Origin: Chalara sp. BL73
Taxonomy: Eukaryota; Ascomycota; Leotiomycetes; Helotiales
Assembly: GCA_918026815.1 (NCBI GenBank)
Contig: CAKJVC010000123.1
Location: 558,001 to 622,000, forward strand
DNA length: 64,000 nucleotides
Direction of reading: 5' to 3'
The notes beneath the pieces were generated by a model. It ran no database searches, was not told the origin of the DNA, and saw only the letters and a program-made list of their open reading frames with translations. Both the position numbers and the translations under genes were made by a program. Shown one piece after another: positions 1,631-54,706 of the stretch; positions within the stretch are counted from its first letter, which is position 1; the number at the start of each line of letters is the position of its first letter.

Positions 1631-3498
1631 ATGCGTACTTTGGAGATTGGAAGTATGGCAGAAGTGCATGGCTCTCAGTTTGAAACAAACGCCTGTGACC
1701 AATGGTATGATTAGTTGTTATTAGAACAAGTCCTCTTTTGTCTTACAGGCTGTGGTCTCTTCAGGAATTTTTCAAATAATATTTCTATATACACTTCGCT
1801 GAGAGATCAGGCTACCTCAGTTTGCAGGACAGCTGCTATGCATAAAGGCTTCATATAGTTTTGACTCCATGCGCTGATATATTGAGTAGCTTCAGAACAA
1901 AGGTTACATGCTCAAGGCATACTCCGCAGTGCCAACGGTGCCAGAAGTCATCAACTCCATGCACATATAGTTTTGGAAAGTTCATGGGCAAGCCAAAGAG
2001 AAAACTAAAAAATCGGCAGCTACAGCAAGGAGAATGGAAAACCGACAAAGAAACCACAACTAAAAAGAGCGCAGAATCCTGTTCAGACATTGGGGGTGAG
2101 TGACAAGTCAAGGCTCTGTGGAAATACAATCTGACTGGTCCTTCAGGTTGTCAATACTCTGGTAACACCCAACAGCACCAACGTTCTGAAGTTATTACAG
2201 AGACTAGACTAGGGCTTGATGCTGCTACTAACAACACTCTTTCCACAAGTGACACATCGGTACGACCTGCGCTGATAAGTTCCAATAGCGAAGGGAGCAG
2301 GAAACGGTCCTTGAATCTGTTCGCGTGCGATCAATGCTACCGATTCAAAGTAAAGTGCGTGCGGGACGGCGACTTTTGTCAACGGTGTACGGGGAACAAA
2401 AATATCTGCACATATAGTATAGATAATGTGCGGGAGAAGGAGGACGATATTGATCTTCAGATATCTACAAGTCCTACAAAACGGCGTCGACATTCTCTTG
2501 GCAAAGAACAGACATCCGATAAAAAGATTGCAGAAGAGCAACAGCCAGGCGGTAATGTGTATGAAACAGAATGGATCGGCACTAAAGAGCTTTCCAACAT
2601 TCCTTTTGATGTGAATCGCATAAATGGTAAGTGTTTTAATAAAATCGAGAATAGATATCTTACCGAAAAACTAACAGGCGGTGGCTCAGGTCATATGCTG
2701 TCAAAAGAAATGCCAATGTATTTACATACTAATGGGGATTACGGCCAAGAGGATCAAAATTTTCCAATCCCTTTAGATTCAGATGACAAATCCTATGAAT
2801 TTCTAAATCAACTTGCGATGCTTGGCCAGGAAACCCCCCTCTGGACACCGATCACAGATCACAATCCAAACCTCGAGACTTTACAAGTCAGCCATGAGAC
2901 TTCTGCTCAGGAACCAGAAATTCCGGAAAGCAGCAGTCAAAGACTCAACTTGTCCAACTCCAATAGCGATTCGATGGGGAGTTTATTTGACAAGGAATGT
3001 TACATTTCTTCCGCCCTGTCTACACTTTCGAAGTTGCACGAACTGGGGCGTCCCTCGATAGGAACAAACAAGCCAATGGGGTTGGACTCTCTCCTTTCGC
3101 TAGCCCATTACAGCCTCTTCATTTGTGAACAGGTCGGCGACTCTAAATCGTGTCCTCCATACGCAATAGTCATGCTCTGTATATCAATCTTGCATCAGCT
3201 TTTAAACTGCTTTAACATGCTATCTTCTGGCATCCGCGAAAGCCACAGCTCTATATCTATGAGTATCAAAATTGGGGATGTAGCATTTTATGACATGTCA
3301 TATGCTCCAAGCATTATGCAAGCAATATTGAGTGGTGAGAACAAGAGAGCTAAGCGGGCTTGCGAGAGGCTTATAAATGTCTGCACACGGGATGGTGACT
3401 TTTGTGAGAAGGGGACAGAAGGTGACCCAGGGCTAGCTAGTGAATACAACTGCTTGATAAAGTTGTTAGACATTGTAAAACACAAGTTCACCACCTGA
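1631..3498 (+). CDS. AflR-like transcription factor with two tandem Zn2Cys6 clusters
   Basis: Predicted pathway-specific transcription factor of 526 aa. Proposed exons are 1631-1704, 1890-2095, 2147-2626 and 2678-3498. Introns 2 and 3 have canonical GTGAGT and GTAAGT donors; intron 2 has CTGAC before its CAG. The sequence directly shows two complete clusters with the same spacing C-X2-C-X6-C-X6-C-X2-C-X6-C, at about residues 22-49 (the second cysteine is created by splicing exon 1 to exon 2) and 154-181. The C-terminal half (about 300-520) resembles the AflR regulatory region, with no fungal-TF middle homology domain visible. ATG 1631 is the first in frame after a stop at 1559; ATG 1655 has the better context (A at -3, G at +4) and would remove 8 residues. 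The gene lies directly upstream of a repeat-peptide precursor and is its likely regulator (inference). Intron 3 (51 nt, multiple of three) could be retained. Intron 1 (185 nt) is the least certain junction, but it restores a perfect cluster. Confidence 0.75.
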
Positions 3499-4397: not shown

Positions 4398-5075
4398 ATG
4401 AAGTTCGCTTCTGTAGCCACGGTTTTGGCCCTTGTCACCTCTGTCGCCGCTCTTCCGCTGAGTAAGTCCAGATTCGCAATTTGTTCTTCGGATCCTGGTG
4501 TAGAGGATTGTACTGATGATATAAATGCAGATAAGCCAGCGCTTGGTCTAGAGGCCAGAACCATTGACAAACGTGAGCCATACAAGAAGGCGGTTGTCAG
4601 CCCTGATACAATCGTCGACAAGCGTGAGCCATACAAGAAGGCGGTTGTTAGCCCTGATACAATCGTCGACAAGCGTGAGCCATACAAGAAGGCGGTTGTT
4701 AGTCCTGATACAACCGTCGACAAGCGTGAGCCATACAAGAAGGCGGTTGTTAGTCCTGATACAACCGTCGACAAGCGTGAGCCATACAAGAAGGCGGTTG
4801 TTAGTCCTGATACAACCGTCGACAAGCGTGAGCCATATAAGAAAGCGGTTGTCAGCCCTGATACAACCGTCGACAAGCGTGAGCCATATAAGAAAGCGGT
4901 TGTCAGCCCTGATACAACCGTCAACAAGCGTGAGCCATACAAGAAAGCGGTTGTCAGCCCTGATACAATCGTCGACAAGCGTGAGCCATACAAGAAAGCG
5001 GTTGTCAGCCCTGATACAACCGTCGACAAGCGTGAGCCATACAAGAAGGCGGTGGTCAGCCCTGACATCATTTAA
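4398..5075 (+). CDS. Secreted Kex2-processed repeat precursor (candidate dikaritin-type RiPP precursor)
   Basis: The N-terminus (residues 1-20) is a clear signal peptide ending near AAL-P. A likely intron at 4462-4530 (GTAAGT donor, ACTGAT branch, TGCAG acceptor, 69 nt) keeps the frame, giving 202 aa spliced or 225 aa if retained. The mature part is ten near-perfect repeats of 17 residues with consensus DKREPYKKAVVSPDTTV (51 bp each). Each carries a KR Kex2 site, so processing should release about ten peptides beginning EPYKKAVVSPD. Core variants are few: TIV or TTV, one NKR, and a final truncated PDII. This architecture (signal peptide, tandem cores, KR spacers, a Tyr in each core) is that of UstA/AprA/PhomA-type precursors cyclised by UstYa oxidases. 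A UstYa-family gene lies 1.4 kb downstream. A non-modified secreted repeat peptide (KEP-type, repellent-like) is the main alternative. The antisense 233-aa frame is a shadow of the repeats. Confidence 0.85.
   Translation: MKFASVATVLALVTSVAALPLSKSRFAICSSDPGVEDCTDDINADKPALGLEARTIDKREPYKKAVVSPDTIVDKREPYKKAVVSPDTIVDKREPYKKAVVSPDTTVDKREPYKKAVVSPDTTVDKREPYKKAVVSPDTTVDKREPYKKAVVSPDTTVDKREPYKKAVVSPDTTVNKREPYKKAVVSPDTIVDKREPYKKAVVSPDTTVDKREPYKKAVVSPDII
4566..5072 (+). repeat. Ten tandem 51-bp coding repeats
   Basis: Nine full 51-bp units and a final 48-bp unit encode the repeated core peptides. Differences are mostly third-position changes (AAG/AAA, GTT/GTC, ACC/ATC), so the protein repeat is conserved more strictly than the DNA. 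This suggests selection on, or homogenisation of, the core. Confidence 0.95.
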
Positions 5076-6431
5076 ACCGTTGTTTATGGGATGAGAACTT
5101 TATGAGAAGCTAGATTTGAAGGCAGTCACAGGGCCCCATCCCGCTGTCTGATTTGGTGTTCTCTTTTATCGGCTGAGCTTGGATCTGGATTTGGATTCAA
5201 TGTTAAGTTATAGGAATTGAGACTGTATGCGAGTTGAAGCAAATGAAATGAAAGTGCTGTTCTCAGGCAAAATTTCTCTTATTTCTCAACTTTCAAGTGC
5301 ATTCTTGTAGATGCCATGTTGTTCTAATCTCTAATAGCTGCTATTTAACGAACAGCAGATACACACATCTTTCGCCTTGCTTACATGTAAAGCTGTCGTG
5401 CTCTTTGAGCATCAATTGATGACGGCCATTGGTGTTAAGACTATACACTCCACTCAAAAGCGTTATGAAATGTTATGGCAGTTATCATAGTACAGGGAAC
5501 AAAACACTGGAAGGAAGCTAGCCATTATTCAAACAGTGGCAATAAAATCCTTGTAATCTAAATATCTACCTAGCTCTAAGTGCTTTCATATCGTGGCTTA
5601 CTTGTCATAAAATAATTTAAATATGGTTGAATTGAGCCATAGTAAGAGTCACCCATACTTGCGGTTGCGTAAACTCGAAGCTACATAGGCAATGGTATCT
5701 TCACGAGAAAAAGCTCAACAAGAAAAAGGTGTTGCTTCAATGTTCTCTTATAAACCTCTTTAGGTAGACGACTGTTACAGAGTAGCTCGGCTGCTGACTC
5801 AGTAGCTTGGGCTTTCTTATCATAAATGGCTTTCTCTCTCAATCATCTCTACACTTGTTTCATCAACGTGAGCTGCTCTAGCTCCTTGGCATACTCACGT
5901 AAGCCGATTCCTGACACCAAGTTTTGGTGGAAATATATCACGTGATTGGACTTCAGTTGAAATGTCTTCCCAGTATAGCCATTGATTTCGCACTATAAGT
6001 AGCACTTATGGTCATCACTACAACGTTTTGAGCATGTACAGGCATATTTATGAAGATCATAAGACGTGTAGTGGTTAGCATGATGGAACTCGTTTTCTCA
6101 GTACCATCCTTAACACAAATGCGGCAGAAAGTGTCGGAAATAGCCTAGAGTCTGACAGTTTTTGCAGGGGAAAACTCTTAGATTGTTCCGATAGTTGTCG
6201 GTAGGTTAGAAGTCACGGAGGTGAGATGCTGCTTACATCCCGGTTTTTGATGGCTAGCGGCTAGTGTTACACACCAAATTCGGGACTTGGCATATTGAAA
6301 AGCTGGAATCACTCCAATATATATCTGCTACAACCTCTATTGCGGCTTTCTATGTAAAAATTTTCCCTCCCTTTTGGCATTAAATCATTTCCATCCTAAC
6401 CTAAATTCCGAGTTCATTTGAATCATTGGAC
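5076..6431. other. Intergenic between precursor and UstYa gene
   Basis: No gene recognised. A CCG-N8-CGG element (possible Zn2Cys6 half-site pair) occurs at 6188-6201, about 230 bp before the UstYa ATG. No TCG-N5-CGA site was found here. Confidence 0.45.
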
Positions 6432-7442
6432 ATGGCTCCATCCCTCAAACAACACGTGACAAAACTGAAAAGCTGTAATCGATGAAGTCAAGCCCCCAAA
6501 TCTACAACTAACTCACCATCATTACAGGGTTCGGTTCGGATACAGGTCTTCCATACTCAAAATATCTCGACGAAGATACCGAGCCATGCATAGATCAATC
6601 GCTCAACAAGGAGGTGGACGTTGAAAAGCTAGGCGAATCACTCTCCCGTTCCCGTTCATCATTCTGGCGTATATTCACAAAAGTGGCGGCCACAGCATCC
6701 CTATTTCTCCTTGGAACCTTCATATTTTCAAAACTTTTATCCGATAGCGGAAGCGGTCAAATGTCACTCGTTGCAATAGAGAGAAAGGAAGCAAAGTATG
6801 CACACTGTGGGAACAATCCAGAAGAGGCCAAAGCTCAGGGTTGCGTTTGGGATTTAATGAGCTTTTCTTGGGAGCATCCAAGTTGCTTCGACCAGGAAGA
6901 ATCGGATAGGTGGATCAAAAGGTTTGGTCCATGGTAAGTTATTCTTCTAGGCAACCCAAAGCAGTCATCTTCTTTAAGATCTACATTCCGAAAAGACATC
7001 TCAAATAAGAGCAAATATCTTTGGCGGAAATTTTATCGATTCTGAAAATCTATGCAAGTCTTCAACTAATCCGGTGCTTCACGCCAGGGAGTGGTATGAC
7101 GAACTACCTGGCACAAACTCAACAGAACTCCGACCCCTGACTTCCGAAGAATTGCCCTACACCCCGATCGCCTTCACAACACAAGGCTATCATGTTCAGC
7201 ACTGCCTTTATATTATGAAAATGATACACCAAGCCGGAATGAAACGGATCCCCTTGGTTGATGAAGGAGTTGGTTTAGGACACACGGAGCATTGCATCGA
7301 ACTGATGACAAATGAAAACCTCGTTCCTATGAAACTTGTTAATACTAGGCTGGAGCTCCTGTTTCTCAGGTGTGTTGAATTACCTGGGTATGATATAAGG
7401 AGGAAGAAAGAGGAGGAGCTGAAAGCGTTAAGTCCAAATTAG
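6432..7442 (+). CDS. UstYa/DUF3328-family oxidase, candidate RiPP cyclase
   Basis: Proposed exons are 6432-6474, 6528-6933 and 7088-7442, giving 267 aa. Seen directly: one hydrophobic membrane segment after a basic stretch (FWRIFTKVAATASLFLLGTF region), then a Cys-containing block (CGNNPEEAKAQGCVWDLMSF) typical of one UstYa subgroup. The two diagnostic HxxHC motifs are HVQHC (about 185-189) and HTEHC (about 215-219). UstYa proteins are membrane-anchored oxidases that form oxidative macrocycles, often at Tyr, on Kex2-released peptides in the secretory pathway. Exon 2 to 3 splicing (GTAAGT; CTAAT branch; CAG) creates the WEWYDELPG junction expected for the family. The first intron has a weak donor (GTAATC), so the first 14 residues are less sure. 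Proximity to the precursor supports a biosynthetic pair; the substrate is inferred. Confidence 0.82.
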
Positions 7443-9061: not shown

Positions 9062-9548
9062 TTGATTTTTAGGGGTCGATATATCACAAAAATACTGGCT
9101 CACTGGTTAGGAGCCTTCCTCCCTTTGGTTCCTTTCTTCCTCTCCACACTTGCTGCACCTGGTACGAGTCGAATTCACCTTCAGCGTTGGCTCACACTAA
9201 CCTCAAAGTATAACAGCAAAAAGAGACAAGGTCTCTCATTTAGAGATTTCCGCTGAGGATGCAGGCAATGGATTGTATGGATGGCGCCGAGACATAGCTT
9301 CGAAGTTGGAGATACCATAAGAAGATGAGGGCAACAGGCTTTATGGATGGCGAAGGGCCACAACCGAGGAAGTTTCGGAGGATGACGGAAATGGAATTTG
9401 TGGATGGCGCCGAGCTGCTCCTGATGAATCCGCTGAAGACGCGGGCAATGGGATTTACGGATGGAGTAGAGCGCCAGCGGGGAGCTTGTCAGAAGATGAA
9501 GGCAATGGGTTGTATGGATGGTGTCGTGCTGCTGAGAACAAGGAGTAA
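9062..9548 (+). pseudogene. Second Kex2-type repeat precursor, interrupted by a stop
   Basis: A hydrophobic signal-like segment (9095-9155, ...FFLSTLAAP) joins through a plausible intron (9162-9216; GTACGA donor, CTAAC branch, AACAG acceptor) to a second exon opening with a KR site. Five repeat units follow, starting at 9255, 9321, 9378, 9435 and 9492, with consensus ED-x-GNG[LI]YGW-RR. Units 2-5 are spaced exactly 57 bp. An in-frame TAA at 9318-9320 after unit 1 truncates the protein; the frame then stays open to the TAA at 9546. No ATG is in frame with the signal segment; ATG 8665 behind the TATA box could belong to an upstream exon or to sequence since disrupted. The core GNGLYGW is unrelated to the EPYKKAVV core of the first precursor. 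This is either a recently broken precursor or one that now releases a single core. Confidence 0.55.
9255..9548 (+). repeat. Five coding repeats of about 57 bp
   Basis: Repeat starts are 66, 57, 57 and 57 bp apart and encode ED-x-GNGLYGWRR-like units. Variants replace Tyr by Cys in unit 3 and the first Arg of the RR pair by Ser or Cys in units 4 and 5. Confidence 0.75.
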
Positions 9549-31715: not shown

Positions 31716-34700
31716 CTAGATCTGAACAAACCTCGATATCCTCGCCGCTTTTGCAGCCAATTGACCAATGCGTTGATCGCCGACCATTTCAAAAACGGAG
31801 ACATCAGAACCCACCTCCTTCGCCATCCATGCTCGAATCTCCACAGCTACGAGCGAGTCGATACCGTACGCATGCATGGGCCTTAGCGGGTCAAGTTCGG
31901 CTACGTCAACGCTGAGGACCTTTGTTAGTTTCTCTAGCAAGGCGTCGAGGACCACTTTCTCAGCCTTTTGTTGTGACTTGACTGCCGAGAGAAGCGCGGC
32001 GACCGATCCATTGCTATACCCTTGCTTCGCACTGGATGTGTCGCTGCCACTCTTCATGTCATGCAGAATCATGTGATTAAACCTCGGCTCATGCTGCCAG
32101 GTTGGCTGGACGGCCCCCCCGGCCGCAGAGTACCTGGGAAGCCAGAGCCTCGGCACGACCTGTGCCTGCTCAGCAGTCATGTCCTTGTTCTCGCCCGGAG
32201 AACGACAGTAGTAATCCAGTGCAGTGATGAGCTCATTGGCTGACATGTGCGACCAGCCAATAGAGTACAAATATTCCATCAGCTTCGGCTTCGTAGCAAC
32301 CATACCAGCATCGCTCATCATGGGAACGTTAAGTGCAACGACGTTATGGCCCTGCGAGGACAAGCACCTAGCTAATGCATCTTGGTACGAGTTGCCAGCA
32401 GCATAGTTTGACTGTCCGGGGTTGCCAATGATGGAAGCCATCGATGAGAGCATGACGAAGAAGTCGAGGCTAGAATCTGCATTTCTGGAAGTGAGGGCTT
32501 CCCACAGATTCCAAGTTCCAGAGGTCTTGACGCTAAGCGTGCCCTGCCATTGGCCGAGCGTCATATTATTGAACGTATTGTCCTAAGAGCCACCGTGATG
32601 TCAGTGATATGTTTCGTACATTTGGCTCATCAAATATTGGAGAAAGACTTACGCTGAGAATCGTGGATGCCTGGATACATCCCCGAACTGGTGGCATGTG
32701 AGAGAGACAAGAGGATATTACATTCTCTAGAGCGTTCTTGTCCGTAATATCACAAGCCGGGGTGACAATCTTTATACCCCTGTATTGTAAGTCTGCAACA
32801 AGCTTCACAGCAGATTCTTCTACTGGCCCTCGCCTGGAGGTCACAATCAGATTCCTCACGCCATTATTTACCATCCAGAGAATTATTTCCTGTCCTAGAC
32901 CCCCAAAACCACCAGAAATGACATACGTTGCGTCAGTCGCGAACTTGGCAGCAGGTTTTGGTGGCTTGGCCACTGGGACCACGTCCTTGTCGTGGACTTC
33001 GATAACTAGCTTTCCAATATGCTTGCCGGACTGCATATGACGCAAAGCATCTTGAATCCGGGATATCGGATAAGTCGTTATAGGTGTTGTCCGTTTGAGC
33101 CCCTTACCGAGGACGCTGTCGATGGTCCGCTCGAAAAGATCCTCTATACGTCTCATATCTGTTTGCTGCATGTAGTTCAGCTCAATGGCCTCGAACCTCG
33201 CGCATTTGGCAAAGGTTGCCATTGATATACGAGCCCTTGATTCGATATCAGTCAAACCAATCTCGGCGAAGCGTCCAAACGGTGCAACGCATTCCCAGGT
33301 AGCTCTAAGTAAATCGCCAGCAAGACTGTTGATGACTATGTCGATGCCACGCCCGTTTGTCATTCGCATAATACCGGCTTTGAAGGTTACGTCTCGACTC
33401 GAGAGGATATGATCGCGCGGCAATCCGTACGTCTTCTCAAGAAAGTCACGCTTCTCCAGGTTGCCAACCGTGGTGAAGATCTCAGCCCCCTCGCGCTGAG
33501 CCAGCTGGATAGCGGCCTGACCAACACCACCAGCGGCTGCATGGATCAACACTGTTGGTTTCCTACCTCTGCTTACATGCTTTCCCAGCTCTCCAATATC
33601 GTAGAGACAGGCGTATGCCGTCGTATACACAATCGGTATAACTGCCGCCTCTTTAAACGATAGGGTCTCGGGCATATGGGCAATAGTACCCTCTAAAGCC
33701 CTAACGTGGGTTGAGAAGGCACCCTTAAAGGCGAAGCCGAAGACGCGGTCGCCATTTTTGAAGCGCGTCACTCCTGGCCCTACTCTTGTGACAATGCCTG
33801 CAGCTTCGAGACCAACCGGTGTTTCTTTAATTTTGCCCAACATCACGGCTAAATCTTTGAAGTTGACAGCAGTCGCCATGGTCTTGAACTCGACTTCGGT
33901 ATCTGCAAGTGGGGCTGCGTGCAGCAGGTCATAATCGAAACACAGCGAGTCCAGAAGACCGATATCTTGAATCCGAAGATGCAGAGACCGACTGGAGTCC
34001 CCCCCAAAAACAGAGTCAGCCATTTCGATAGCTAAGGTCTGTTTCTTGATGTGCTTTGTCACATTGGTGGCCTCAACAAGTCTCGGAACGTTGACTAAGC
34101 CGTTAACAACCTTGTATGATGTTTCGATGGGTGCTTCACTCTCAGTCATCGTGGTGTCAACCTCCAAGATCTTGCCCACGATAGTGTCAACGCTAGCCCC
34201 AAGCTGGAAGGTAAGAATAACAAAGTCGAGCTCAGGTCTCTCGAGGCGAATGCAGGTGGCAAAGCCAGTAACAAGGTCCGTATCCGGGGATCTATCCTTG
34301 TTCACCCAGAGCAGTCGCCTGCTATTCATTATATTTTTTAAAGCCATCAGGACATCCTCCGTGACCGATGTGAGTAAGCTGGCTCCCAACTCTGGCAGAA
34401 GGATACACGTGCTACTGCAGTGGTCCCCCTGGCTAGCTGTCGCTGGAGATTGCGCATATTGTGCGATTGTACCACACGTAGCAACGTGACCTCTGGACGA
34501 TAAGGCAGAAGATAGTTTGTCAGCTACAAGCTGTTGTAGCTCCGAGGTTGGGTCTATGACGATATAGTACCCCCTGGATGTCGATAGCTCCAAACTCTTA
34601 TTATTTTCCTTTAATGGCGCACTTGATACTATTACTGACAGATCTTGATCGTGGAAGACAGCCTCAAGCCCGGTGAATCCACAGCTGACCAAGTGCGTGC

Positions 34701-37700
34701 CCCAGATTCCGGTTGCGCTAGTACCTTCTGCCACTGCCAAGATGAGCTTGCCTCCACGTTTGAGGAGACTAAAAATGTTGCACAGTACTCTGTCAATATT
34801 TTCTGTGATGCTTAGATTAGTAGTTGCAAGAACGACATCATAGGTTCCCGTCTCAAAACCCTGTGTGGCCGGATCTTCCCCCACATCAAGAACTTGAAAG
34901 TGTATGCGATCATCTGAGAAGCTTTCCCGTGCCTTGTCGAGGGATGAGGGGAGTATGTCTGTAAAGTAGTACTCCGCGTATCGCTGGCCTAATGTAGATA
35001 GTATGTCTCTAGTAGCACCGCCGGTGCCAGCGCCTACTTCGAGAATCTTTATTGCAGGATGTTTGTGCGCAAGCGCATCCAGGTATTTCTGCAGACCTCC
35101 CGTCATTCCAAAGGCCTTTGCTGCCTCCTCGAGGCTCAGTAGCTCAAGGTCAGGCTTCCAGTCAATGTTCCATGCTCGATGTTTAGGATCGTCCTCGGAC
35201 ATCGAAGATTCCTCATAGCCGTCAACCTCTGTCACAATTAACCCCGTCACTAGGACCATTGGCTCCCTGGTATTCGGGTCAACAGCCACGCAGTTCATTT
35301 CATACTCCTTCCTTCCATGGAGTTTAGTATCAGCACATACCATATATCCATCATCCGAGTGCTGAGAACCGGATACCCAGAGTTCGTCAAGAAAAGTGAG
35401 AACGATAGCGTTGGTTTGTTTCCGGACAGGATTGGAAATGAGAGGTGCTAGGCAGACTTGCAGCGCGCCGTCCAGCAAAGTAGGATGAACCAAATGTGGC
35501 TGGAGGTGCTCGTGAGGCATCAGCTTTTTCAGAATAGGAATGGTTGAGTTGACTTTAGCAACAGCTCTGCCTGAGTCGTGATCGACAAAGGGGTCTGACA
35601 CGGTCTGGAAGGCTGGGCCGAACACAAGACCAACGTCTTTCCATCCATCATAGATTTTCTTGGCTGCAACTTTAGTTGTACATTTTTGCTTGGCCTCGCC
35701 AATGCTGTCGTTACACCTTGTTTGGAGAAGTTGGTCTTCTAGACCGCCGTCCACAATCGTCTTTTCCTCGTCATACTCGACTAGGACCTGCCCTCGGCAA
35801 TGCTCTCTCCACTCGTCGTTCTCCTGTGCAGTGCAAATCTGGAACTCGCGCCATGGCGATGGTTTGGTCTCTAGCGCGGCCTGTTTGACCGGCCTCAGGT
35901 ACAAGTGTGACTCAACGCCCATGGCGTCATCAACAACTCGTAATGCTGCATGGAAAGACACCTCTCTGAACCGAAATCCCTTGATTGATTTGCCAGGGTT
36001 GGAACGTTCGGCGAGTTGCCGACAACCTTCAATAACCATAACCAGCATACCAGCAGCAGGATACAAGATCGCTCCCGAAATCGTGTGGTGCTCAACCCAA
36101 GGATTCTCCGAAAGTCGGATCCAGTTACGCCATATCGCATCATGTTTTCCATCCCAGTCGTTTACAGGCGCACCAAGAAGCTCATGGCGAGGATATGCAC
36201 GATTGCGGAAGTTTCTACTAAGTCGACTTTCGTACCAGTATTCCTTAGAGTGGTTGAATGGGTACCGAGGAAGATCAATCAGCATCTTCTGCTTCAATGC
36301 CTCAACGTAATTGACATTGACCAGGTTGATTTGGATGCCGCGAGTGTACAGTGATCCAGCTGCCTGTAGGGCGATTTGAAGATCCGCTTCGCCGCGCTTG
36401 AGCATGTTGTGATATCTCACGACACCATTTCCCCTGGCCTCATTGACGATGTTGCGCAATGGGCCCTTCAGAGCAGCGTGTGGTCCTAGTTCCAGTATGT
36501 CTGTGATCAGATGAGTTTGACTGCTTTCTCCGCTGGTCTTCGACATGGCTTGAAGCATGGCTGTTATGGACTCATCGAATCGTACTGGCGCGACCAGATT
36601 CTTGATCCAATATGCGGACTCTTGCAATTTTGATATGCCAATAATGGTACCGTACGTCGATGAGAAGAATTGCGGCTTAGGGGAATCGCTCATCCAGCAA
36701 CCTGGCTCAATGCCGCCGATACATTTAGTGTATTCTCCCGACATGGGTTCCATATATGTCGAGTGATACGCCATCTCAACGGCCAATTTCCGTGCAAATA
36801 CCTTATTATTATTCAGCATCTGGACCATCGCTTCGATTTGTGCAGCGTCTCCGCTGATGGTTTGGTTCTCTCGGCTGTTCATACAAGCGATGGTGAGCTT
36901 TCTGATATCCCGAAATCCAGACTTATTGACTTTGTCAATGACATCCGTGGCATTTCCGAAGTCGAGTCCAACGGCAGCCATTGCAGTACTAGGTTGCGTT
37001 CCAGAACGAGCCAATTTTGTAGACAGCTTTCCTGTAGTACAAAGAGGTTGGGTCAGCTAATTTGTAGTTTGAATTAAGGCAAGAACAATGTACTTACCCC
37101 GCCAGTATGCTATCTTCCAGGCTGATTCTCTAGAAAGAGCACCAACAGAATAGGCGGCCGCGATTTCACCAGAAGAATGACCCGCAACCGCACGAGGCGA
37201 CACTTTCCAAAAAGCAAGCAGATCAACAAGAGCAACCTGTAAAGCTGTGCACAGAGGTTGCGAGAATTCAGCCTCATTCACTCGAGATTGCTCTGCAACT
37301 TTCTCAAGCTCGCCTACCACCGAAACGGTCAGCGAAAAGGGCGGAAGAACTCGTGGTCGAATAGTATTGAAGATAAATTGAAAGGAGGAGGAATTACTCA
37401 CAAATCACCGACCATGAACATTCCAATGTCTTCAAGAATGCATCAGCTGATTGGAGACTTTGACGAAATACTGGATATTGCATCAATTCCATTCCCATTC
37501 CTGCCCACTGCGCTCCTTGGCCAGTGAACACGAACGCGATCCCAGCTTCAGCAACAACCCGTTCAATTTTTTGATTCTCGGAAAGTGAATTTTGTAACGA
37601 CTTTGCCGAATTGGCGACGATTGCCGTGCGCCAGTTGAAATTAGACCTCTTCGCCGCCAGCGTGAAGCTCAGGTTATACAGAGGGTCATTCATTGATGGC

Positions 37701-39443
37701 AAGTATTCCTTGTAGGCATTACATAGCCTTGAGATACCATCTTTATCGTGTGAACTCAACACGAACAATTGAGGTGATGTGGTATGTATCCTGTTTGTCA
37801 TTGCAGGATATTGGTTAGCTGTAGATCATATTATCATCAGCATGAGCGCCACTATGTTCCAGTCGAAGTGTCTACTTGAAACTTACAGACTACACCCGGC
37901 AACTGAGGCGTAACGATAGTCCGATGCGGAGCAACAAAGCCATGCTCCTTCATAAAATGAAACGCATCGTCCATCACCACATGAGCATTCGTACCAGAAA
38001 CTCCAAACGAATTGATAGAGATTCGACGAAGCCCCGTCTTAGTTGAAGGCCAAAGAAGTGCTTTCGTCGGGAATTTGAAATGCCATTCATCCGGAATTTT
38101 GGCGTTCTGCTTTTCGAACCATGCATTTGCAGGAATAATACCATTTTCAAGCGTAAGTACGCTCTTGATGACGGATGCAATCCCAGAAGCCCCCTCTGAG
38201 TGCCCGATGTTGCTCTTCACAGCCCCAATGTAAAGAGGTTCTTCTGGTGACCTGTACGAAGTGAACATTTCGCTGATTGCACTAGCTTCGATGGGGTCGC
38301 CCACTGGTGTACCGGTTCCATGGGCCTCGAAGAAGCGAGTTTGTGATGGGTCAAGTCCAGCTTGTGTATAAGTTTTTCGCATGAGCTCTGCCTGGGATTC
38401 CCTCGCGGGCGCCGTGAGCCCAGGGGAGTGACCATCATGGTTGCATCCAGTGTTGCGGATAACGGCACGGATAGCTATTCAGATGATAACAGGAGATATC
38501 AGGGTTTTATTTCCTTGCATAGATGTGCGGTTTGGGGAAGAGGGCGTAACTCACTGTCTCCATCACGCAATGCGTCGGACATCCGCTTGAGCACAACAGC
38601 CCCAATGCCCTCGCTTCTCCCGTATCCGTTTGCCCTCTCATCAAAGCTATATGAGACGCCATCTGGATTGAGAACACCCAGGGCATTTAGCTCCAAACCC
38701 ATCTCAGGAGAAAGTATTAAGTTTGTTCCAGCCGCGATCGCCTGTTTATAGAGCTTGTTAGTATGTGTAGTGTACTACTAGCTTGCTGATCGGCCCATAC
38801 CATGTCACAATCACCCGACTTCAAGCCAACAATAGCCTGGTGAAGGGCCACCATACTACTCGAACATGCAGTATCAATGCTCATAGATGGCCCCCGAAAG
38901 TCGTAGAACCAAGAGACACGTCCGGCCAGCGTGCTTGCGATTGTACCGGATCCTGTGTACATCATTGGAGCATCGACGTCCTTGATTAAAACGTCACGGT
39001 AGTCCCAGATGAATGCTCCAACGTACATCCCTGTCTGCGAACCTTGAACCGCGTCCATTGTAAGACCAGAATTCTCAAGAGCTGTGTAGACGCATTCGAG
39101 AAGCATTCGTTGTTGCGGGTCCATACTTGCGGCTTCGGCAGGCGTGATAGAGAAGAAGGGAGCATCAAAGGCTCTGATATTGTCTTGGATGAAATGACCT
39201 TTGTTGCCACCAATCTGGAGTTTTGCTCAGCTCACCATATTTAAGGAGACACGGGTTCAGGCAGCATACAATTCCATCTCTATGGCTGTCTGGGTGCCAG
39301 AAAGCGCCTGAATTATACCTTTCAAGTGGCACTTGGCCTCGCGCAGATCTCCCAGCGACGAGGAAGTCGTAGAACTTCGCAGGGGTATCTCCATCGCATG
39401 GGAGCTTGGCATCCAGGCCAATGACGGCAATAGGTTCAACCAT
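31716..39443 (-). CDS. Highly reducing type I polyketide synthase
   Basis: Eight exons on the minus strand (39443-39270, 39214-38801, 38741-38555, 38474-37887, 37818-37402, 37313-37098, 37031-32653, 32582-31716) give 2413 aa. Domain order with approximate residues: KS 1-420 (Cys175 in [26 protein letters not shown]), AT 510-850 ([10 protein letters not shown]; Ser640 in GHSSGE), DH 920-1240 ([14 protein letters not shown], His about 979; LDGALQ), C-methyltransferase 1300-1450 ([15 protein letters not shown]), ER 1690-2010 ([22 protein letters not shown]), KR 2030-2260 ([30 protein letters not shown]), ACP 2310-2413 (Ser about 2367 in [10 protein letters not shown]). All catalytic motifs look intact and there is no thioesterase, so release needs another factor. 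It should build a reduced, methylated polyketide chain. It diverges from a P450. A TATA box and a TCG-N5-CGA site precede the ATG. Confidence 0.95.
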
Positions 39444-39516
39444 ATTGCTGGATACTCTCCCTATTTCACGTTATCACGAGGCCAGAATTTATTCATCTTA
39501 GTAAGGCTTACAGTCT

Positions 39517-41252: not shown

Positions 41253-43211
41253 ATGCCACCTACGTGGTTAATTGGAGCACTATTTCCCATCTTGATAGCG
41301 ACATGGTGGCTACTTAAAATTGGTCGTCGGCCGGCTGGTTATCCGCCGGGACCGCCTACTGTCCCTATCCTTGGAAATTTACATCAGATTCCGCTTGAGA
41401 ACAAACATTTGCAATTCCAAAAATGGGCCCAAAAATATGGGTAAGCATTGGGTGATTAGTAAACTACCCACCTGAGGTACGACTAACATGAACTATAAAA
41501 ATATAGCCCTATCTATTCCGTCATAATGGGCTGTAGAACGGTGATTGTTCTCTCCTCGGATGAAATAGTCAAGGAGCTCTTAGATAAGAGAGGGAGCATT
41601 TACTCATCTCGGCCGGACTCCTACATTGCAACTCTCTCATCTGATGGAATGCATGTGGGTACTATGGTGGGTGATGCCTTGTAAAATCTTCTTTCTTTGC
41701 ATAACGCTCACCGGCCCAGCAATACAACGACACCTGGAGGACGTGTAGCAAACTCTATACCAATAGTCTCACTACTCGCGCGTCCAAATCATATCGACCC
41801 TACCAAGATCTCGAGAATATTCAAATGCTTAATGACCTCCTCGAGAGGCCCACCGAATTCTATGAACATTTTCGCCGTTACTCCTACTCAGTGACTGCTC
41901 AGATGGTCTTCGGATTCCGCATACCCGATAATGACGACCCAAATCTCCTGGAGATCTACGACGGCTGGATACGGTGGTCAACACTGATGGGTACTTCGAT
42001 TGCGGCCCTGGTCGATATGTACCCATGGATGAGGCACTTGCCAGACCTACTGCTACCCAAGCGGCGTTATGCCAAAGGGCTTCACGAGAAGCAATTGGCT
42101 CTCTTCTCCGGCTACTGGACCAATGTCAAGGAAAAGATCTCGAGTAATACCGCACTAGTAAGCATCACATATTATGAAGAATACTTTATAATTTATCTGA
42201 ACGCGCCTAATGATTGCCGCGTAGCCGTGCTTTGCACATGACATGTTTAAAGAACAGAAAGCTAAGGATGTTTCGGATGATTTCGCCAGCTATATCTGTG
42301 GAGTTCTGCTCCAAGGCGGATCTGATACTACAGCAGCAGAATTTGTAGGCTTCGTGCAAGCTATGGTCCTATATCCTGAGGTGCAAAAACGGGCCCAGGC
42401 TGAGGTCGATGAGGTCTGTGCGGACCGTCTCCCTACCCTGGAAGATATGCAGTTGCTTCCATATGTTCGGGCTTGCGTCAAGGAAGTTTGCCGTTGGATG
42501 TTCGTGTACCTAATCTTTCACATTCTCGTTCTCCCCAAACTCTTTACAATGGCCTCATTCTACAGTGCTGCTACTGACATCGATTTTCAAATAGGCCTAC
42601 TCCAATATTAGGTCTGCCTCATTCAGTGATTAGGGATGATGAGTATATGGGATATCGAATTCCTAAAGGCGCTACGGTTCTTTGCAACGTCTGGTAGGAT
42701 CCAATCAGTTAGAACGACGTATTTGCAACTAGTGGTTCTAATAAATTGTTATGGTTGTAGGTCGATTCACATGGATCCCGCACGTCACGCAAATCCGAAA
42801 ACTTTTGATCCATCCCGCTACCTGCACGACCATCGGTCAGCCAAGGAATCAGCACTCTGTCCTAACGCCAAGGAGCGGGACCATTTCATCTATGGTGCGG
42901 GCCGACGGGTTTGCAAGGGAATCGACGTCGCTGAGGCGTCGCTACACCTTGGTGTGGCTAGGATGCTGTGGGCTTTCAACATCTCAAAGGCTAAAGATAA
43001 GTGGGGCAACGATATCACACCCAACCCTAAGGAATTAGAAGGAGAACTGGGCGTAACCCCGAAGCCTTTCCCTGCCCAGATTATTCCCAGGAGTGAGAAG
43101 CATGCCCAGATAGTCAAGTCTGAGTGGGTGCTTGCCAAGTCCCATCTAAGCAACGAGGACCAGCAGTGGAATGAGGCTGACCTCCGGCAAAAACTAACCG
43201 ACTGTCCGTAA
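41253..43211 (+). CDS. Cytochrome P450 monooxygenase
   Basis: Six exons (41253-41440, 41507-41666, 41720-42157, 42225-42499, 42595-42693, 42761-43211) give 536 aa. An N-terminal membrane anchor ([16 protein letters not shown]) and the hinge [17 protein letters not shown] place it at the ER. Visible landmarks are the I-helix [10 protein letters not shown], the ExxR pair in KEVCR (about E349/R352), the [17 protein letters not shown] block, and the heme loop [12 protein letters not shown] with Cys about 438. The sequence type resembles O-methylsterigmatocystin-oxidoreductase-like (CYP64/CYP620-like) P450s of secondary metabolism. Apparent stops in the raw frame all fall in introns; the exon 4 donor GTTCGT is unusual but needed to rebuild [14 protein letters not shown]. 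It probably oxidises the product of the adjacent PKS (inference from divergent pairing). Confidence 0.9.
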
Positions 43212-44344: not shown

Positions 44345-44698
44345 ATGAAAGCGTCCGACCTTATTTTTACTGCCTCCTTCCTTTTCGCAGCTGTTTCGAC
44401 AGCAGCACCCACTGAGCCTCTCGAAATATTACAACAACGCAACATAGAGAGTTTCGACGCTCTCGGCACTGCGGTCTCTGAAAAAAGCGCCCATGAGAAA
44501 CGAGGCAGGATCACCATCGAGGACTGTTTAAAAGGTGTCCCTAATAAATACGCCCTTGTGATGATCGCAGCAGCACGAGCAAGGAAACTGGTGGCTTCTG
44601 CGACCGAGCAGGCAAAGTTCGAGAAGGAGAAACGTATCCAGATAACGCAGCAGGATCTTCAAGACTTACGTTCGGAAATCAAGAAATGTCAGGCTTGA
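44345..44698 (+). CDS. Small secreted protein with Kex2 site
   Basis: Single-exon 117-aa protein. The signal peptide is MKASDLIFTASFLFAAVSTAAP. A pro-like region ends at EKR (Kex2 type, about residue 53), followed by a Lys/Arg/Glu-rich, predicted helical mature part of about 64 residues with two cysteines (EDCLKG and the C-terminal KKCQA) that could pair. I recognise no family. Location at the edge of the subtelomere and the pro-peptide layout are typical of candidate effectors or secreted peptides, but that is inference. The ORF could be extended 5 codons upstream only with a non-ATG start. Confidence 0.65.
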   Translation: MKASDLIFTASFLFAAVSTAAPTEPLEILQQRNIESFDALGTAVSEKSAHEKRGRITIEDCLKGVPNKYALVMIAAARARKLVASATEQAKFEKEKRIQITQQDLQDLRSEIKKCQA

Positions 44699-45262: not shown

Positions 45263-48200
45263 TTAATAAAGTTGAACAAAAGTTATAGTTTACTGCTTTG
45301 TTTAAATATAAAGTGTCGTTGCGCAGTAAGTCCGGCGACTATAACCAACTATTTGCGCAAGCAACATTAAGTAAAGCTTAAGCTTTGTAAGCAAATAGAT
45401 CGATATATTAAAAAAATTTTATTTCGATATAATTATTCGACAGTTCAATTACTACCGAATAAATTTGCTTTACAGCTAATAATTAAAATTGTAAATAAAT
45501 ATTAGTACAAATATTGCTTATTTAAAAAAACACAAAACTGCGGCAACGCTAAAAAACATAAAAACAAAACTTACAACAAAAAAAAAGTTGCGAATAAAGA
45601 TTTATTTAATTGCGTTAAACTGTAGTTATAGTTCAAAAAAAAGAAAAAGCGCTATTAAATTGTAAATAAAAGTCAGCAGTTAAGTCAACTAGTATAGTTA
45701 CGTGCTAGCCCGGCTAACTAAGCAAATAACAGCTATAATAATAACCGAAAAAATAACAGCAATTATAATAGTAACAGTAAAAATAATAATCAAGAAATTA
45801 TCGATAACTAAATTGTACGAAATATTGAAGCATAAAAAAATCAAGCTAAAAAACGCCGGCTAACATTATTACAAAAAAAGCTACTTATAAAAGTTAATTC
45901 GTAGTTGCAATTTACTTAATAAAATAAAGTTTTAAGCCGATTTAAACATAATATAATTAAGATTTACTGTTTTGCCCGAAAAGCCGATTTCGACAAGCTT
46001 GAATTAGTTTGCATTACTAAAATATAAAACCGAATATTAAAGCAGTGTTTAAATACGTTAGCAGCGTCCGACTATAAAAATACGCTTAAATAGTAAAAAT
46101 CACTAAAAAATAAAGCAACTAGCTAGTATTCGTTCGAATTGCTGCAAAATGCAAAAACTATTACTAAGTATAGTAAATTATAGCAACAAAAACTATATTA
46201 CTAAATGCGAACAGCGCTAGCGAAATAAAAAAATAAAACAAAAACCGGCGTGTAATTTACTGAAAAGCAGTTTAAAAGCATACAAAAAATCCGAGTAATA
46301 TTATAAACCGATTTTTTAGAAAATAAATTTACTGAAAAAAAAAAGCGAAACTAAGTATTAACGACCGAAGTAATACAGTTGTTTATATTAATTGTAATAC
46401 AAAATATAAGCAAAATTTCCGTATACGATTTTTTATTAATGCATTTTTTAGCTGTAATAAGTGTAAATATATACACTAAAACGCTTTGTTTATCGTTTTA
46501 TTATACTAAGTTTTTAGCTGCAGTTTTGTATATTAACCGGTTAATTATGTTAAAAATAGCTGTTTTAGCAAAAGTATAGTTTATATTACTAAATCGAAAT
46601 AATATTTCCGATATTCCGAATTGCATTATGCAAATTCGAAGCAAACATTTATGTAAAAAGTCGTTTTTGTTTACATTATACATTTTAAGCTAGTTAGCTA
46701 TAAAAAAAGCATTTAATAAATTGCATAAGTTCGCACTTAACATTTATTAGTCGAACAACTAGCAAACTATTTTTTATAAAAGCCGACTCGTACGACTAAA
46801 AAATTTTTTTAATATGTGTTACGCTGTTAATACCGAGCTGCAAAAAATATTAACGTAATTAATGTTTAACGAAACTGTTTTCGACATTAATTTAAGCTAA
46901 ATTACTAACAGCATAATATAAAACTACGAATTCCGGCGTAATAAATATAGTTTTATTTAGCATTTTTAAAACTAGCATTTAAATGTTAAGTATTAATAGT
47001 TATTAACGCGTACGCGAACAGCTTGTAGCAAACAGCAAATTATCAAAAAAAAAGTAAGCGAGCAAAACGAATAAATTAAGCACCGCGTAAATACGTATTT
47101 AACAGTTAAAAAAAAGTTTTTGCAAAAAGCTATAAAAAAAATTCACATTTAATATAAGCAGCTTGCTCGTAAACCGGAAATTAAGTCGATCAAAGTTAGC
47201 AACAGTATATATTCCGCTCGAAATATATACGTAATCAATAGCCGAGTATGTATTTTAACAATATACAACAAAACTCGAAAACAACGCAACAACACCGAAT
47301 ATATTGTTCGGTTTTTGCTTAATAAACCGAGTTAAATAATTGTTTAGTATTTTACTTGCGTTTGTTTATTCGCGCGAGTATTAAATTAGCGCGAGTCCGA
47401 ATATTTGTTTAAAAATAACCGAAATTTATAAGCGAGCGAAAAGTTGTTTTGCGAATTAAAAGCAATTACCGGCAAGCATTTAAAAGTAAAGTTAGTCGTA
47501 TTGTTATAGCGTTAAACTGCAGTTAAAATCGCTAAATGTTATTTAATTCGAGCAAACAAGTTATAAAAGCAAAAAAAAAAAAATAATAAAAATAAAAACA
47601 ATTTTGCGGAAAAAAACAATAAAAAAAAATTGCAAGCTACAATGTTTTAGTATACTGTAGTTCGGCAATCCAGCTACAGCTAGCAAGTTGCACAGAATTA
47701 TTATGCTATTAACAAAAGATTTTTGCATCGGTTAAAGCCTGAATTGTTGCGCGTGTTTAAACAAGCATTAATTGCATAGCATAATTTATTTTATTTACAG
47801 TCGAACAAAGCTAGTCGACGCGCGAAAGCGTTCAGTTATCGGCGTGCCGTTAACTAGCAGTTAGTGTTTTTATTAAAAAAAAAAATCAAAACCGAAAAAA
47901 AAGTTTTACAAAAGCATAGTACTGCATTCCGTAAAGCTATAACCGGTTTGTACCGGATCGAGTTTATTTAGTCGCAATTCGAAAGTTAAGCAGCAGTATT
48001 AAAATTAGTTTATAACTTTTTAGCAATGTTTATTATTGTATTGCCGACAAGCAGTAACAAATTCGTATTGTTTTTTTTTGTAACAGCTATAGCCGAACAA
48101 CAAACTGTAATTGTTGTAGTTTTATTTGCTGTATTAGTAAATAATTTAGTTTAGCGTAGCTAACAAACCGAGTTAGCGTGTAAAAAGTAGTTCGAACTGC

Positions 48201-49440
48201 ATTTATATAGTGAAATATAGCAGCTAGTTATTGTTAGCGCCGATCGAGCTGTAACTGAAAAGTTTCGACATTATACTAAAAAATTAAAATTGTATAAACA
48301 ACTAGCATATATGTTTTTTAACAAAAGTTATGTAGCATTTATCGATATATCGTTTCGAAAGCAGTTGCGCGATTTATAAACGTTGCGGTATTTAAATTGC
48401 TTGTTTACGTATTTAACTGCTACGTTAATTGTGCAACTAAAAAACGTGTTGCGAAATAAATTATTAATTTTTAATACGCAGTTGTTTCGACAGTTTACTG
48501 TACGTTACACTATTCGATACTGTGTTTACGACAGTAAAAATAAAACTTTGTTCGTAGTTAAATTACGAATAATTTAACGTTTAGTATTGTTCGCTAAAAA
48601 ACGAAGTGTAATTTACGTTCGCAGTTACGCTATTAGCGAAATTATTCGCAACGCGATACAGTGTTTATTTTATAAAACACGAGCAAATAACAAAAAAAAG
48701 TTATTATAAAAGTAAATACAAAATTATAGTTAAATTGTAGCGACCGGTGCGTTAAAAACAAAAGTTGATATCGCCGACATTATTTTCGTAGTTTATATTA
48801 ATCGGCTATATAAGTTAACTAGTTTTGCGCAGTAGTCCGGTCGCAGTAAAAAAAGTAGCAAAATAAGCGATTTTATTGTTATTATTCGAGTTTAAACTAT
48901 TAGCAAGCAACGTCGAAAAGAAGTTTTAAGTAAGTATTGCGTTAAGCAAGTTAATAAAAACGCTATAACGAAGTTTTTGCAAATAAAAAAGTGTCGGCAG
49001 CAAGTAATAGCAAAGCATTTCGATAGTAAAATAAAAAAAACTAATTGCAAAAGCACCGATAGCATTTTGTGTAATTAGTATAGTATTAATTCTCGTTCGT
49101 TTACAGCACTAAAATGTTAAAATAAAAAAATTAAAAACGAATATGTAAACGCGGTAAGTAGTAAAACAGCACTAAAAACGAGCAGCGAAGTTCGCGGTAG
49201 TTAAATAATTGCCGGCAAGTTAAAAGCGTTAGCCGAAACAAACGAGTTCGTATTTTAAGCTATAAACGTATTAAAAAGCAAATACGTGTATTGCAAGTTT
49301 GTTTGTATTAATAACGAAGTTTACGAACAGCCGTATTCGTATGCAAAGTGTTTTGCCGCGAAAGCTAATCGCGTTAGTTATTGTAATTTTTAGCAGTAGC
49401 GAAAACAAATAAATTTTAAAAAAAAGTTTAAACATTGTTT
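45263..49440 (+). pseudogene. Decayed RecQ-type telomere-linked helicase, gene 1 of copy 1
   Basis: Despite many stops, helicase landmarks are readable in order. A P-loop-like LPTSSNKF (about 48037-48062, from a GxGKS-type motif) comes first. NKSYVAF (about 48318) follows in the place of a DEAH-type box, then YLTATL (about 48410) and a C-terminal GALKTKVDIADIIFVVYINRLYKLTSFAQ (48755-48830) leading to the arginine-finger SGR motif. A Cys-containing tail like the RecQ zinc segment lies near 48990-49080. The first 2.6 kb (N-terminus) is too mutated to assign. The substitutions are mostly of C-to-T and G-to-A type, consistent with RIP. No active protein is possible. Confidence 0.65.
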
Positions 49441-52400
49441 TAATTATAAGTTGCTTTAAAAAATATGTCTACCAGTAGCAATCGCCGGATTTGCGGCGTA
49501 AATCCCAAATTTCGTAAGCGAAATGCCCCTGAATCAGGGGGAAGCACGGGCCATTTGCACCATAAATCCTGCACTATAAATCCAAGCTGCTCCCCGCGGG
49601 GCCCCCGCGCTTTCGCTGCCAGGTTGCGTGCGCTGGGTAGGCGGGCGGACAGTAGTATTAATAGAAAACGCGTTTGTGTACTTGCCGGAGTGGCAAGTAC
49701 TGCTCTGTACAGCATGTAGCTATTGCTTCCGGCCAAAACAAAAAGTCTAAGTTCGACACTTGAAGCAGCTACTGCATTGCCTGAAAAAGCCGTTGTTAAA
49801 AGCACAAATTGAGCTGTTTCGCAGCTACAAGTTACAAGCGGCCGATGCTGCACCGGCAACGTGGCCGGTTGCTTTTATTTCCGGGCTGCCGCTGCTCGAC
49901 GTTTATCAGTGCTTTACTTGCACAGATTACTTGACCCGGAATAAAAAAGCGATTCAGCAGCACGTGTCTAAAGCTTATCAGCAAAAGCTCGCGTGGCACA
50001 AAACAAAATGCTCGTTGTAGCGAACATGCAACGTGCAGACTTTTTTTGCCGAAAAGCGGTATATCCAGTACTTTGTAGTAAATAGTGTTAACTACACTTT
50101 AAAAAATGCCGAAACTAAAACTAAACGGCTGAATTTAAAAAAAGCAACTTTTTTTAAGCTGCTCGACAAAAATGCAGCTGTCGCAAAAAAGGATGCTACA
50201 GCAGAAACTAATATTGTTCATAGCTTTGATAGCTATAAATCCGCCGTAATGCTATAGCTTAAACGGACCGGTATCGAAAAGCATACGCGAAGCTTAAAAA
50301 AAAACGAGATCTAAACATTTTTTAGCGTGCTAAAAAATGCCGACAACGAGCCCGAGTTATTCCTAATGCTAAAAGTAATAAATAAAATCTTTACCGAAAC
50401 GCACAGCTAGTACTTCGATAGTCCGGATTGTATGTTGACTTAGCTACAGCAGCTAGCGTTAAGCCGCTTTTACACTGCCGCTGCCTCAAAGCAAAAAATC
50501 TGCGCGTTCGACTTTAAAAAAAAGCCCGATACGCTTAAAACCAACTTTAAGTACTAAAAGCAGTTTTTGACTTATTGCTACTGCGTAGCGTACTGCAGCA
50601 GCCACTTCGACACAGCAAATAACGACTAGCGGACCCTTAAAAGCTGCATTCAGCTTACTAATGCTTAGGCGAAAAGCTAAAAAACGGCCGTCCAAAGTGC
50701 TGTCGATCAAAACCGGCTTGCATTGCGAAATGCTATGTCGGTCTTTTCGATAGCACTAATTTGCCACGAATCCAAAAGCTATCGGTACAGCTTTTCGCTG
50801 CTTAGCTTTTGCGCTATACTAAGTATCAAGCCGTACTCTAAAACTTGGAAAAAGCCAAGTAATTACAACAGTTGCTTATTTAGCGTGATTTAAACAGTAC
50901 AGCTAATTATTTTCCACGCGAGTATTTGTTTAAAAAAAATAAAGCTCGGCTATACGCTTTAGCGTATCGAGCAGTATTGCGCGCAGTTTTTAAAACAAAA
51001 CACCGAAACTTCAATAAGCGAGATTTTCGGCTGGCGGTTATTATTGTTCGCGGTCTCGAAAAAAGCTATAAAGCTTTACTAAGCGCAATAAGATCCCGAC
51101 AAGAAAGTTCTGACATACAAAAACGTCGATTTGCATATAAATTACGTACTACAGCTGTTGTTGTCGGAATTCCAGCAAGCTTAGCGCTTGCTGTACAACG
51201 AGCTAATGTTCGGAACTTAAAACTTGCCACGAATACGTGTTTAAACTTTAAAAAACAACTTGGATGCCGATGCTTTTAGCTGGTTTATTAGCTAGCACCG
51301 AAAAAATGTCGAACTTCTGAAACTGCTAACTCGGTTTTTGCTGACCGTTATTCAAGACTCGAAGCCGCTGCGGAAATCTTTCCTAGATACTACGGCGAAT
51401 AGCACTACTGTCTAGCGAGCGAAAACAATTAAACAGTACGAAGCCGTTGCCGACGAGTTCTTAAAACGGCTTCTTGTTTTGATTTATATAAATTCTAGCT
51501 AATCGTTGTGTAAAAGCGAGCTGTTTTTTGTTACTTAGCGTAATACTCAGCAGCGGCGGAACGTTTACTTTAAGCACGAGCTTGTAATGTTGCATACAAC
51601 GTACTACAAAAGTCAGCAGCAAACAAGCAAGTTCAAAAATAATATTCGGTTTTTGCTTTTATTTATTAAAAACTTTTTGCTCGACTATTTAATAGTTGTT
51701 ATTTCGCTCCGTTAAGTCTTTTTTCGCCAGTCCGCTTTACATACTATTATTTTTTTGTACTTGTAGTAAAAAAACAGTAAAGTCTAGACTGACAACCGGC
51801 TAACGCAGTACATAAAGCAAGCATGTGCCCGAACTGGCATTTTTCGGCTGCGTATTGCTAACTGGCGGCAAATAACAGTCAATATCGTCAAAACTAAGTT
51901 TGCAGCCGATATTAAATGCTTTAAAGTCGATAATATAGCCGAAAACGAAAACGCTAAAACAATTGAAACTGACATTCGAGTTATAACTAAGCAGCGGAAC
52001 TATAGTACGCGGACGGTTAACCGCGCTTATGCAAACCAGCAAAATGCCAATTTCGAGAACGTGTAAAATAGCTTTATCCGCCGGAATCTGCGTGTTTCAA
52101 CTTTGTAAAAAAACTAGTAAAAGCTTAATTAGCTGTTTGGACCTGCTGGAAAAAAGAAGCGAAACAGTAAAAACGTAAATAGTCCGCAAATGCTGAAAAA
52201 AATCGCTATAAAAATCTACCGGCCGCGAAAAAAGTAGTCAGCCGCGGCTCTACTAAAAAATGCAAAAAAGCTGTACTAAAATAACACGCTGCAATAAAAG
52301 TCAGCCGCTCAGAAGCGAGCTATAACAACTATAATGTTATGAACTAAACAAGTAGTAATTGTTATAGCTACTAGTAAAAAGAAAAGCCTGCTTTTTATGC

Positions 52401-53950: not shown

Positions 53951-54706
53951 ATTCAGTTTGAATTATATTAAAACTCTTGATATATAATTTTACGTATATA
54001 TCCTACTTTAAATAAAATAAAATAAAATGTAATATATAATAAAACTATTTATTGGCTTAGCTTTATAAAAAATGCTTATTTTATTACTTTTCTTTTTAAT
54101 TATACTTTACTTAAACTTTTGTTAAGCTTTTTCTTTTTTAACTTTGTTAGTATAATTTTTATTTATTTTCTTTTAACTTTATAACCTGTCCGTATTAAGC
54201 GTTTAACAGAAAAAAAATGCAAATAACGGTATAAAAATATATTTCCGGTGAATATATTATCCACGAATTTTTATTTAAAAAAAAATTAAAATATAACCCG
54301 AATTCGTTCGCATTAAGCGCGCTGCCCAGCAAAAAAAAAAAAAAAGAAAAAGTTTTTAATAATTATTTTATTTATTATAGTCGCCCGAATCAAAAGCATG
54401 TTCGAATTAGAAAAAAAAAAAAAAAAAAGTAAACCGAAAAAAGCAAAATAAGTCTAAACTATTACAAAGTATATTTACTACGCGTAACCCGAAACTAGCA
54501 GTACAATGCGCTAAAAGCAAACCCGGAAAAGTCTAAGTTATAATTATCAAGTTTAAAAATAGTTACACATAACAAACAAGTTCAAAAAAGTAAAGTTATA
54601 GCAAAAAGCAAGCGCAAGCGTTAATAAAATAGCTTTAATAAAATAAATTCATCGAAAAAAAAAAAATTAAAGTAGTAAAACAAATATTAAAACATTATTT
54701 TTAAAT

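Follow-up and report, generated by a model that had tools for sequence, protein, structure and literature searches.

The closest described relatives of the locus analysed here are the dikaritins and epichloecyclins (ustiloxin, phomopsin, asperipin-2a, victorin and epichloecyclin), which pair a Kex2 repeat precursor with a UstYa/DUF3328 oxidase; the dikaritin type of product is a peptide cyclised by a UstYa homologue and carries a Tyr ether crosslink. The available text on one DUF3328 copper enzyme, CctR, describes a double HxxHC motif that binds two coppers (PMC12435403). Among 7878 surveyed Kex2 repeat proteins (KEPs), for which a nearby DUF3328 was scored as a cyclising enzyme, 22% are reported to have one; conversely, 31.8% of 9399 DUF3328 counts were located close to such precursors (PMC7329392).

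The window, by which we mean the whole 64,000-nucleotide stretch analysed, comprises bases 558001-622000 of contig C112 (622,338 bases) in a genome of 58.7 Mb on 199 contigs. It contains an intact Kex2-type repeat precursor beside a gene for a double-HxxHC membrane protein (Table 1), and the evidence below makes it probable, in our judgement, that the two form a Kex2-processed RiPP locus with a UstYa-like oxidase that is invisible to Pfam.

Table 1. Features of the locus and repeat precursors elsewhere in the genome (window coordinates except where prefixed L)
Feature	Position	Strand	Remarks
Second Zn2Cys6 piece	1846-2100		upstream of precursor
Zn2Cys6 transcription-factor ORF	2104..3495	+	upstream of precursor
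Kex2-type repeat precursor gene	4398..5075	+	signal-like start, spacer ending DKR, ten EPYKKAVVSPD+tail units
Probable in-frame intron of precursor gene	4462..4530	+	69 nt; inferred from GTAAGT...TACTGAT...GCAG
Ten 17-aa units	4575..5072	+	last cut to 13 aa by stop; KR end in 9/10
Double-HxxHC single-pass membrane protein gene	6432..7442	+	three exons, 267 aa spliced
Introns of that gene	6475-6527, 6934-7087		inferred from sequence
First HxxHC motif	7191..7205	+	HVQHC, residue 185
Second HxxHC motif	7281..7295	+	HTEHC, residue 215
Signal-peptide-like stretch, decayed second precursor	9107..9163	+	no in-frame ATG back to previous stop
Five decayed units	9216..9548	+	ED-x-GN-x-x-(Y/C)GW-xR; other frame than signal-like stretch
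C97 repeat precursor	L054:1301-1984		unit TNIYPSVSFLGDPEAEKVKR (TNIYPSV repeat), eight copies, last variant
C129 precursor, 1.00 Mb	L056:3546-4133		units end in VGYKR/VGYRR; dibasic sites: four
C3 repeat precursor	L057:1423-1881		unit AALNAVKPDSEKR, six copies, last without KR

Results

The repeat precursor

The preliminary description of this DNA had reported a signal peptide followed by ten near-identical KR-bounded cores, and both features are present. The start of the precursor, which reads MKFASVATVLALVTSVAALPL, is signal-peptide-like as judged by eye. Because the intron-like stretch at 4462-4530 very probably is an intron, 23 N-terminal residues of the earlier translation are intron-encoded; without it the start reads MKFASVATVLALVTSVAALPLNKPALGLEARTIDKR, and the units follow. 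The 51-nt unit recurs in 9.9 tandem copies with 96% matches (score 867), EPYKKAVVSPD opens 10/10 units, and the tail is TTV in six units, TIV in three and II-stop in the last. With KR at the end of nine of the ten, the array shows the KEP hallmark of near-identical units that have KR, RR or KK between them. Within the 11-codon core six codons vary and every change is synonymous (probability by chance 9e-5 to 6e-4 across four transition weights), while the tails of the nine full units have two variable codons, both replacements. The core is therefore conserved beyond its synonymous positions, as had been claimed, and this pattern supports selection on the core, short of proof since repeats may homogenise through gene conversion.

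Searches of its own genome with the precursor found no homologue, the matches being itself and a shifted-frame self match, and a literature search with the core and with the YGW-unit strings described below found nothing related. Pfam matches to Hexapep_GlmU, Surfac_D-trimer and LbH_EIF2B were rejected as artefacts of repeat composition, as were the NCBIfam matches.

A double-HxxHC family outside DUF3328

The neighbouring protein carries the two HxxHC motifs attributed to it, and hydropathy places one hydrophobic peak, at residue 67, ahead of them. A double HxxHC near the C-terminus and a single membrane helix before the domain are UstYa-type traits. The assignment to DUF3328 failed, however: Pfam, searched at E<=10, returns nothing for the spliced protein, and the 91 rows of a genome-wide PF11807 search (94 candidates scored) all lie on contigs other than C112. 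As judged from its sequence, the enzyme falls outside Pfam's DUF3328/UstYa family and belongs to a separate double-HxxHC family. Compared with solved structures, the spliced protein had two weak matches (E 0.018 and 0.11) that we judged to be chance, the family profile had none, and AlphaFold2 applied to just the exon with both motifs returned no usable model (mean pLDDT 41.4).

The window exon and two relatives, used as queries, gave 5, 17 and 17 matches at E<=0.01, which when pooled define 18 places in 12 groups in the genome; those reached through weak matches only include C139, C121:178 and C112:557. An alignment was built from 12 members, the other six places being unfetched or broken. 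Both HxxHC motifs and a C-G...A...C...C signature are invariant in all 12, and one D, one E and two W columns are nearly so. The motifs are spaced 29-32 apart, and 11 of the 12 members have one hydrophobic peak ahead of them. Identity between the window protein and its relatives is 17-30%. Pfam, searched with seven of the aligned members, matched none at E<=10. The label PTHR35896, which we take to be the one given to such double-HxxHC proteins, did not occur in the literature searched, nor did a description of this family (a library short of subscription journals and excluding supplements).

Profile comparison points to a distant relation with UstYa. Seven family members against nine canonical UstYa sequences gave a weak match (Prob 16.6, E 0.0015); 12 against 10 gave Prob 79.2, E 1.6e-5 and a score of 44.8 with both motifs in register, for which the reversed control reached 18.8 and none of 60 column shuffles exceeded 15.5. 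Masking the motifs in the UstYa profile lowered the score to 22.4, so the link is carried mostly by the motif, and the 9-10 canonical sequences, taken from the retrieved loci, had been chosen chiefly because their two motifs shared a frame. The family thus appears to be a remote relative of UstYa, alike in layout and motif. By analogy with CctR, in which alone it is demonstrated, the motif suggests a binuclear copper centre in the window protein.

Recurrence beside unrelated repeat precursors

The survey for repeat precursors covered nine of the 12 groups (C112, C132, C84, C165, C121:123, C97, C129:1865, C129:1004 and C3:975-980), leaving out C3:338, C139:413 and C121:178 kb. At C3:975-980, chosen for two family genes with no UstYa nearby, the 3.0 kb between those genes was read. 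KR-bounded repeat precursors adjoin family genes in 4/9 groups, or 3/8 without the window locus, and at all four loci the precursor lies 0.7-1.5 kb from the nearest family gene or match. None was found at C84, C165, C121:123 or C129:1865. The precursors at C97, C129:1004 and C3 have signal-like starts and are unrelated to the one in the window. The repeats at C129:1004 form a VG-rich, low-complexity stretch, and the C3 repeat (AALNAVKPDSE) has no aromatic residue. Genome searches with the C129 and C97 precursors returned themselves and one match of 13% identity at C86.

The 3/8 pairing has a binomial p of 5e-7, 2e-6 or 3e-4 for 6, 10 or 50 assumed precursors in the genome, calculated with a 10-kb reach and places taken as independent, where the stretches actually read were 3 to ~84 kb per group. 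The average for Ascomycota is given as 5.25 such precursors per strain in the accessible text of the KEP survey (PMC7329392). A lenient precursor scan over all fetched loci and the window flagged just C112, C97, C129:1004 and C3, a limited control because most UstYa-match stretches reach just 1.5 kb each side. Five of the 12 family groups have a PF11807 row no more than 10 kb away, compared with 1.55% of the genome (p 6e-7). Three of the pairings (C112, C3 and C129:1004) have no UstYa match within 500 kb on the contig, the nearest PF11807 match being at a distance of 579 kb for C3 and of 848 kb for C129:1004, with none on C112.

Other repeats and clusters were seen at these places. On C132 a secreted-looking ORF (L040:2264-2563, minus strand) with the 8-aa repeat RDVDAKLQ, lacking a dibasic site in the repeats, lies ~1.75 kb from one of the contig's four double-HxxHC genes and is possibly a precursor cut by another protease. 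On C174 (L020:2-238, plus strand) three ADADE(V/A)IR(S/N)SW repeats without dibasic sites adjoin a PF11807 match. At ~10-34 kb of C97 (partly L054) many PF11807 rows, two double-HxxHC genes and the TNIYPSV precursor stand densely together.

Surroundings of the locus

The Zn2Cys6 gene at 2104-3495 is a possible regulator of the locus through a putative link. Farther upstream, one ORF is of MFS type, one has a HET domain, and a GH79 C-terminal domain is also present. Among the subset of surrounding ORFs scanned, no tyrosinase, methyltransferase, peptidase or other peptide-tailoring gene was identified, and Rfam and tRNA scans of the window gave no matches. Elsewhere in the window, polyketide synthase-like ORFs extend across several frames, which may reflect introns or breaks, at 31719-39470 (minus strand), and a cytochrome P450-like ORF lies at 41705-43208 (plus strand), both named by eye. 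The small secreted-looking protein at 44345-44695 (plus strand) has an odd and unexplained Pfam Rpb6 match above the cut-off (31.6 bits).

The preliminary description called the layout minimal, which the remnants at the locus contradict. A decayed second precursor (~9.1-9.55 kb) lies ~1.7 kb downstream of the oxidase gene; its YGW units contain one in-frame stop, two lack the dibasic end and one lacks the Tyr, and a genome search with this piece matched just its own locus. A broken second family member lies at window -700 to -233 (L037:9300-9767), ~4.6 kb upstream of the intact precursor. It was recovered through weak matches (E 0.002 and 0.007) and has three stops, and by eye its frames still show pieces of the CG...GC block together with HxxHC-like stretches that have changed.

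The right part of the window, ~45-64 kb, consists of a 9.5-kb tandem duplication that is AT-rich and near-identical: two copies of a block, ~9.5 kb apart and together spanning 45263-63550, adjoin the contig end. A (TTAGGG)n array occupies 54707-54816 between the copies, and 46-54 kb looks RIP-like by base-pair indices (TpA/ApT 1.53; 0.78). Given this duplication, the array and the 338 bases between the window's right edge and the end of C112, the contig end is probably near a chromosome end.

Discussion

The reading we favour is that precursor and oxidase act together along the secretory pathway. The precursor would enter this pathway, Kex2 would cut after KR and Kex1 would then trim the KR, releasing some ten peptides of the form EPYKKAVVSPD(T)(T/I)V(D/N), from which a Ste13-type dipeptidase may remove the leading EP. 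The large domain of the membrane protein would be lumenal, with EPYKKAVVSPDTTVD as its candidate substrate, and the double HxxHC, acting as a two-copper centre as in DUF3328 enzymes, would oxidise the peptide. Splicing, proteolysis, topology, copper, the action of the enzyme on the peptide and the reaction are steps that we infer. The strongest argument that the family modifies such peptides is its recurrence, within the single genome analysed, beside unrelated precursors. The reaction may be Tyr ether formation, hydroxylation or desaturation, none of which we favour. Since the C3 repeat lacks aromatic residues, the family, if it modifies that peptide, would have to use a chemistry different from the Tyr ether of dikaritins. 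A wider proposal, which we put forward tentatively as a real possibility, is that a second double-HxxHC copper oxidase family, unseen by Pfam, is the sole modifier of some Kex2 repeat peptides that have been counted as unmodified, aromatic-free ones included.

The main rival explanation, which we regard as unlikely, is that what the precursor releases is a linear signal, secreted and pheromone- or effector-like (such as YKKAVVSPDTTVD once Kex2, Kex1 and Ste13 have acted), and that the double-HxxHC gene has a different substrate. It is the main rival because the KR-EP junction fits Ste13 trimming: the accessible text describes removal of an XP dipeptide by Ste13 as generally dedicated to Ascomycota alpha pheromones (PMC6339444). 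A repeat precursor with no DUF3328 neighbour would also be in large company, as such a neighbour is absent from 78% of those surveyed and present for 22%, according to the accessible portion of that work (PMC7329392). Against a linear signal, relatives of the enzyme adjoin unrelated KR-bounded precursors at three other places.

More improbable still is that the locus is the decaying remnant of a once larger peptide cluster, in which the precursor and one oxidase remain open and the modified product is no longer made. The broken second precursor, the weakly matched upstream oxidase relative with its stops and the position near a repeat-rich contig end speak for this. Against it, the ten core units differ synonymously only, and both genes, described from the outset as intact, have open frames with clean splice sites and no internal stop. 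A non-coding tandem repeat, open by chance, is hardly credible: the 51-nt period does keep frames open, three others being open across the array, but the signal-like start, the KR between units and the synonymous-only core variation contradict it.

If a sister family missed by Pfam pairs with part of the remaining repeat proteins, modified fungal peptides are undercounted; if so, they would be found by a motif search for CG...GC...W...C followed by two HxxHC spaced ~30 residues. Concrete candidate substrates are the precursors at C112, C97, C129 and C3. The precursor-oxidase pairings point to an overlooked branch of fungal machinery that may modify gene-encoded peptides.

Comparison with known systems

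The combination of a repeat precursor with a double-HxxHC oxidase is of a known kind; its pairing with a family missed by Pfam was not found described in the literature searched. The dikaritin-type layout proposed in the preliminary description stands in that a Kex2-type precursor lies beside a double-HxxHC membrane protein, and gives way in that Pfam's DUF3328/UstYa family does not include the enzyme. Common to the window locus and the dikaritins and epichloecyclins are the signal-like start, the near-identical KR-bounded units and the adjacent double-HxxHC membrane protein; the enzyme differs from theirs in lying outside PF11807. In the core, KKAVV comes directly after the Tyr, and the EDYXI core given for ustiloxins and phomopsins is absent (PMC6339444). 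Unlike in dikaritins, tyrosinase, methyltransferase and peptidase genes were not identified among the ORFs scanned at the locus. Like CctR, the window protein has one membrane helix at the N-terminus and, towards the C-terminus, HxxHC(x)nHxxHC, whereas its family departs from DUF3328 enzymes of this type in having no PF11807 match and in carrying, ahead of the motifs, an additional conserved block, CG...A...GC...W...C (PMC12435403).

Genome mining for domainless enzymes with rules for a 'UstY-like protein' and a RiPP precursor likewise seeks a precursor beside a Pfam-free UstY-like protein, and the accessible part of that paper leaves unstated whether its UstY-like model covers the present family (PMC11109268). 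Because C112 carries no PF11807 match, a Pfam-based survey of the kind described in the accessible text would class the window locus with the KEPs lacking a DUF3328 neighbour (PMC7329392). In contrast to such KEPs, the window locus has a candidate modifying enzyme, one that a survey of this kind would not see.
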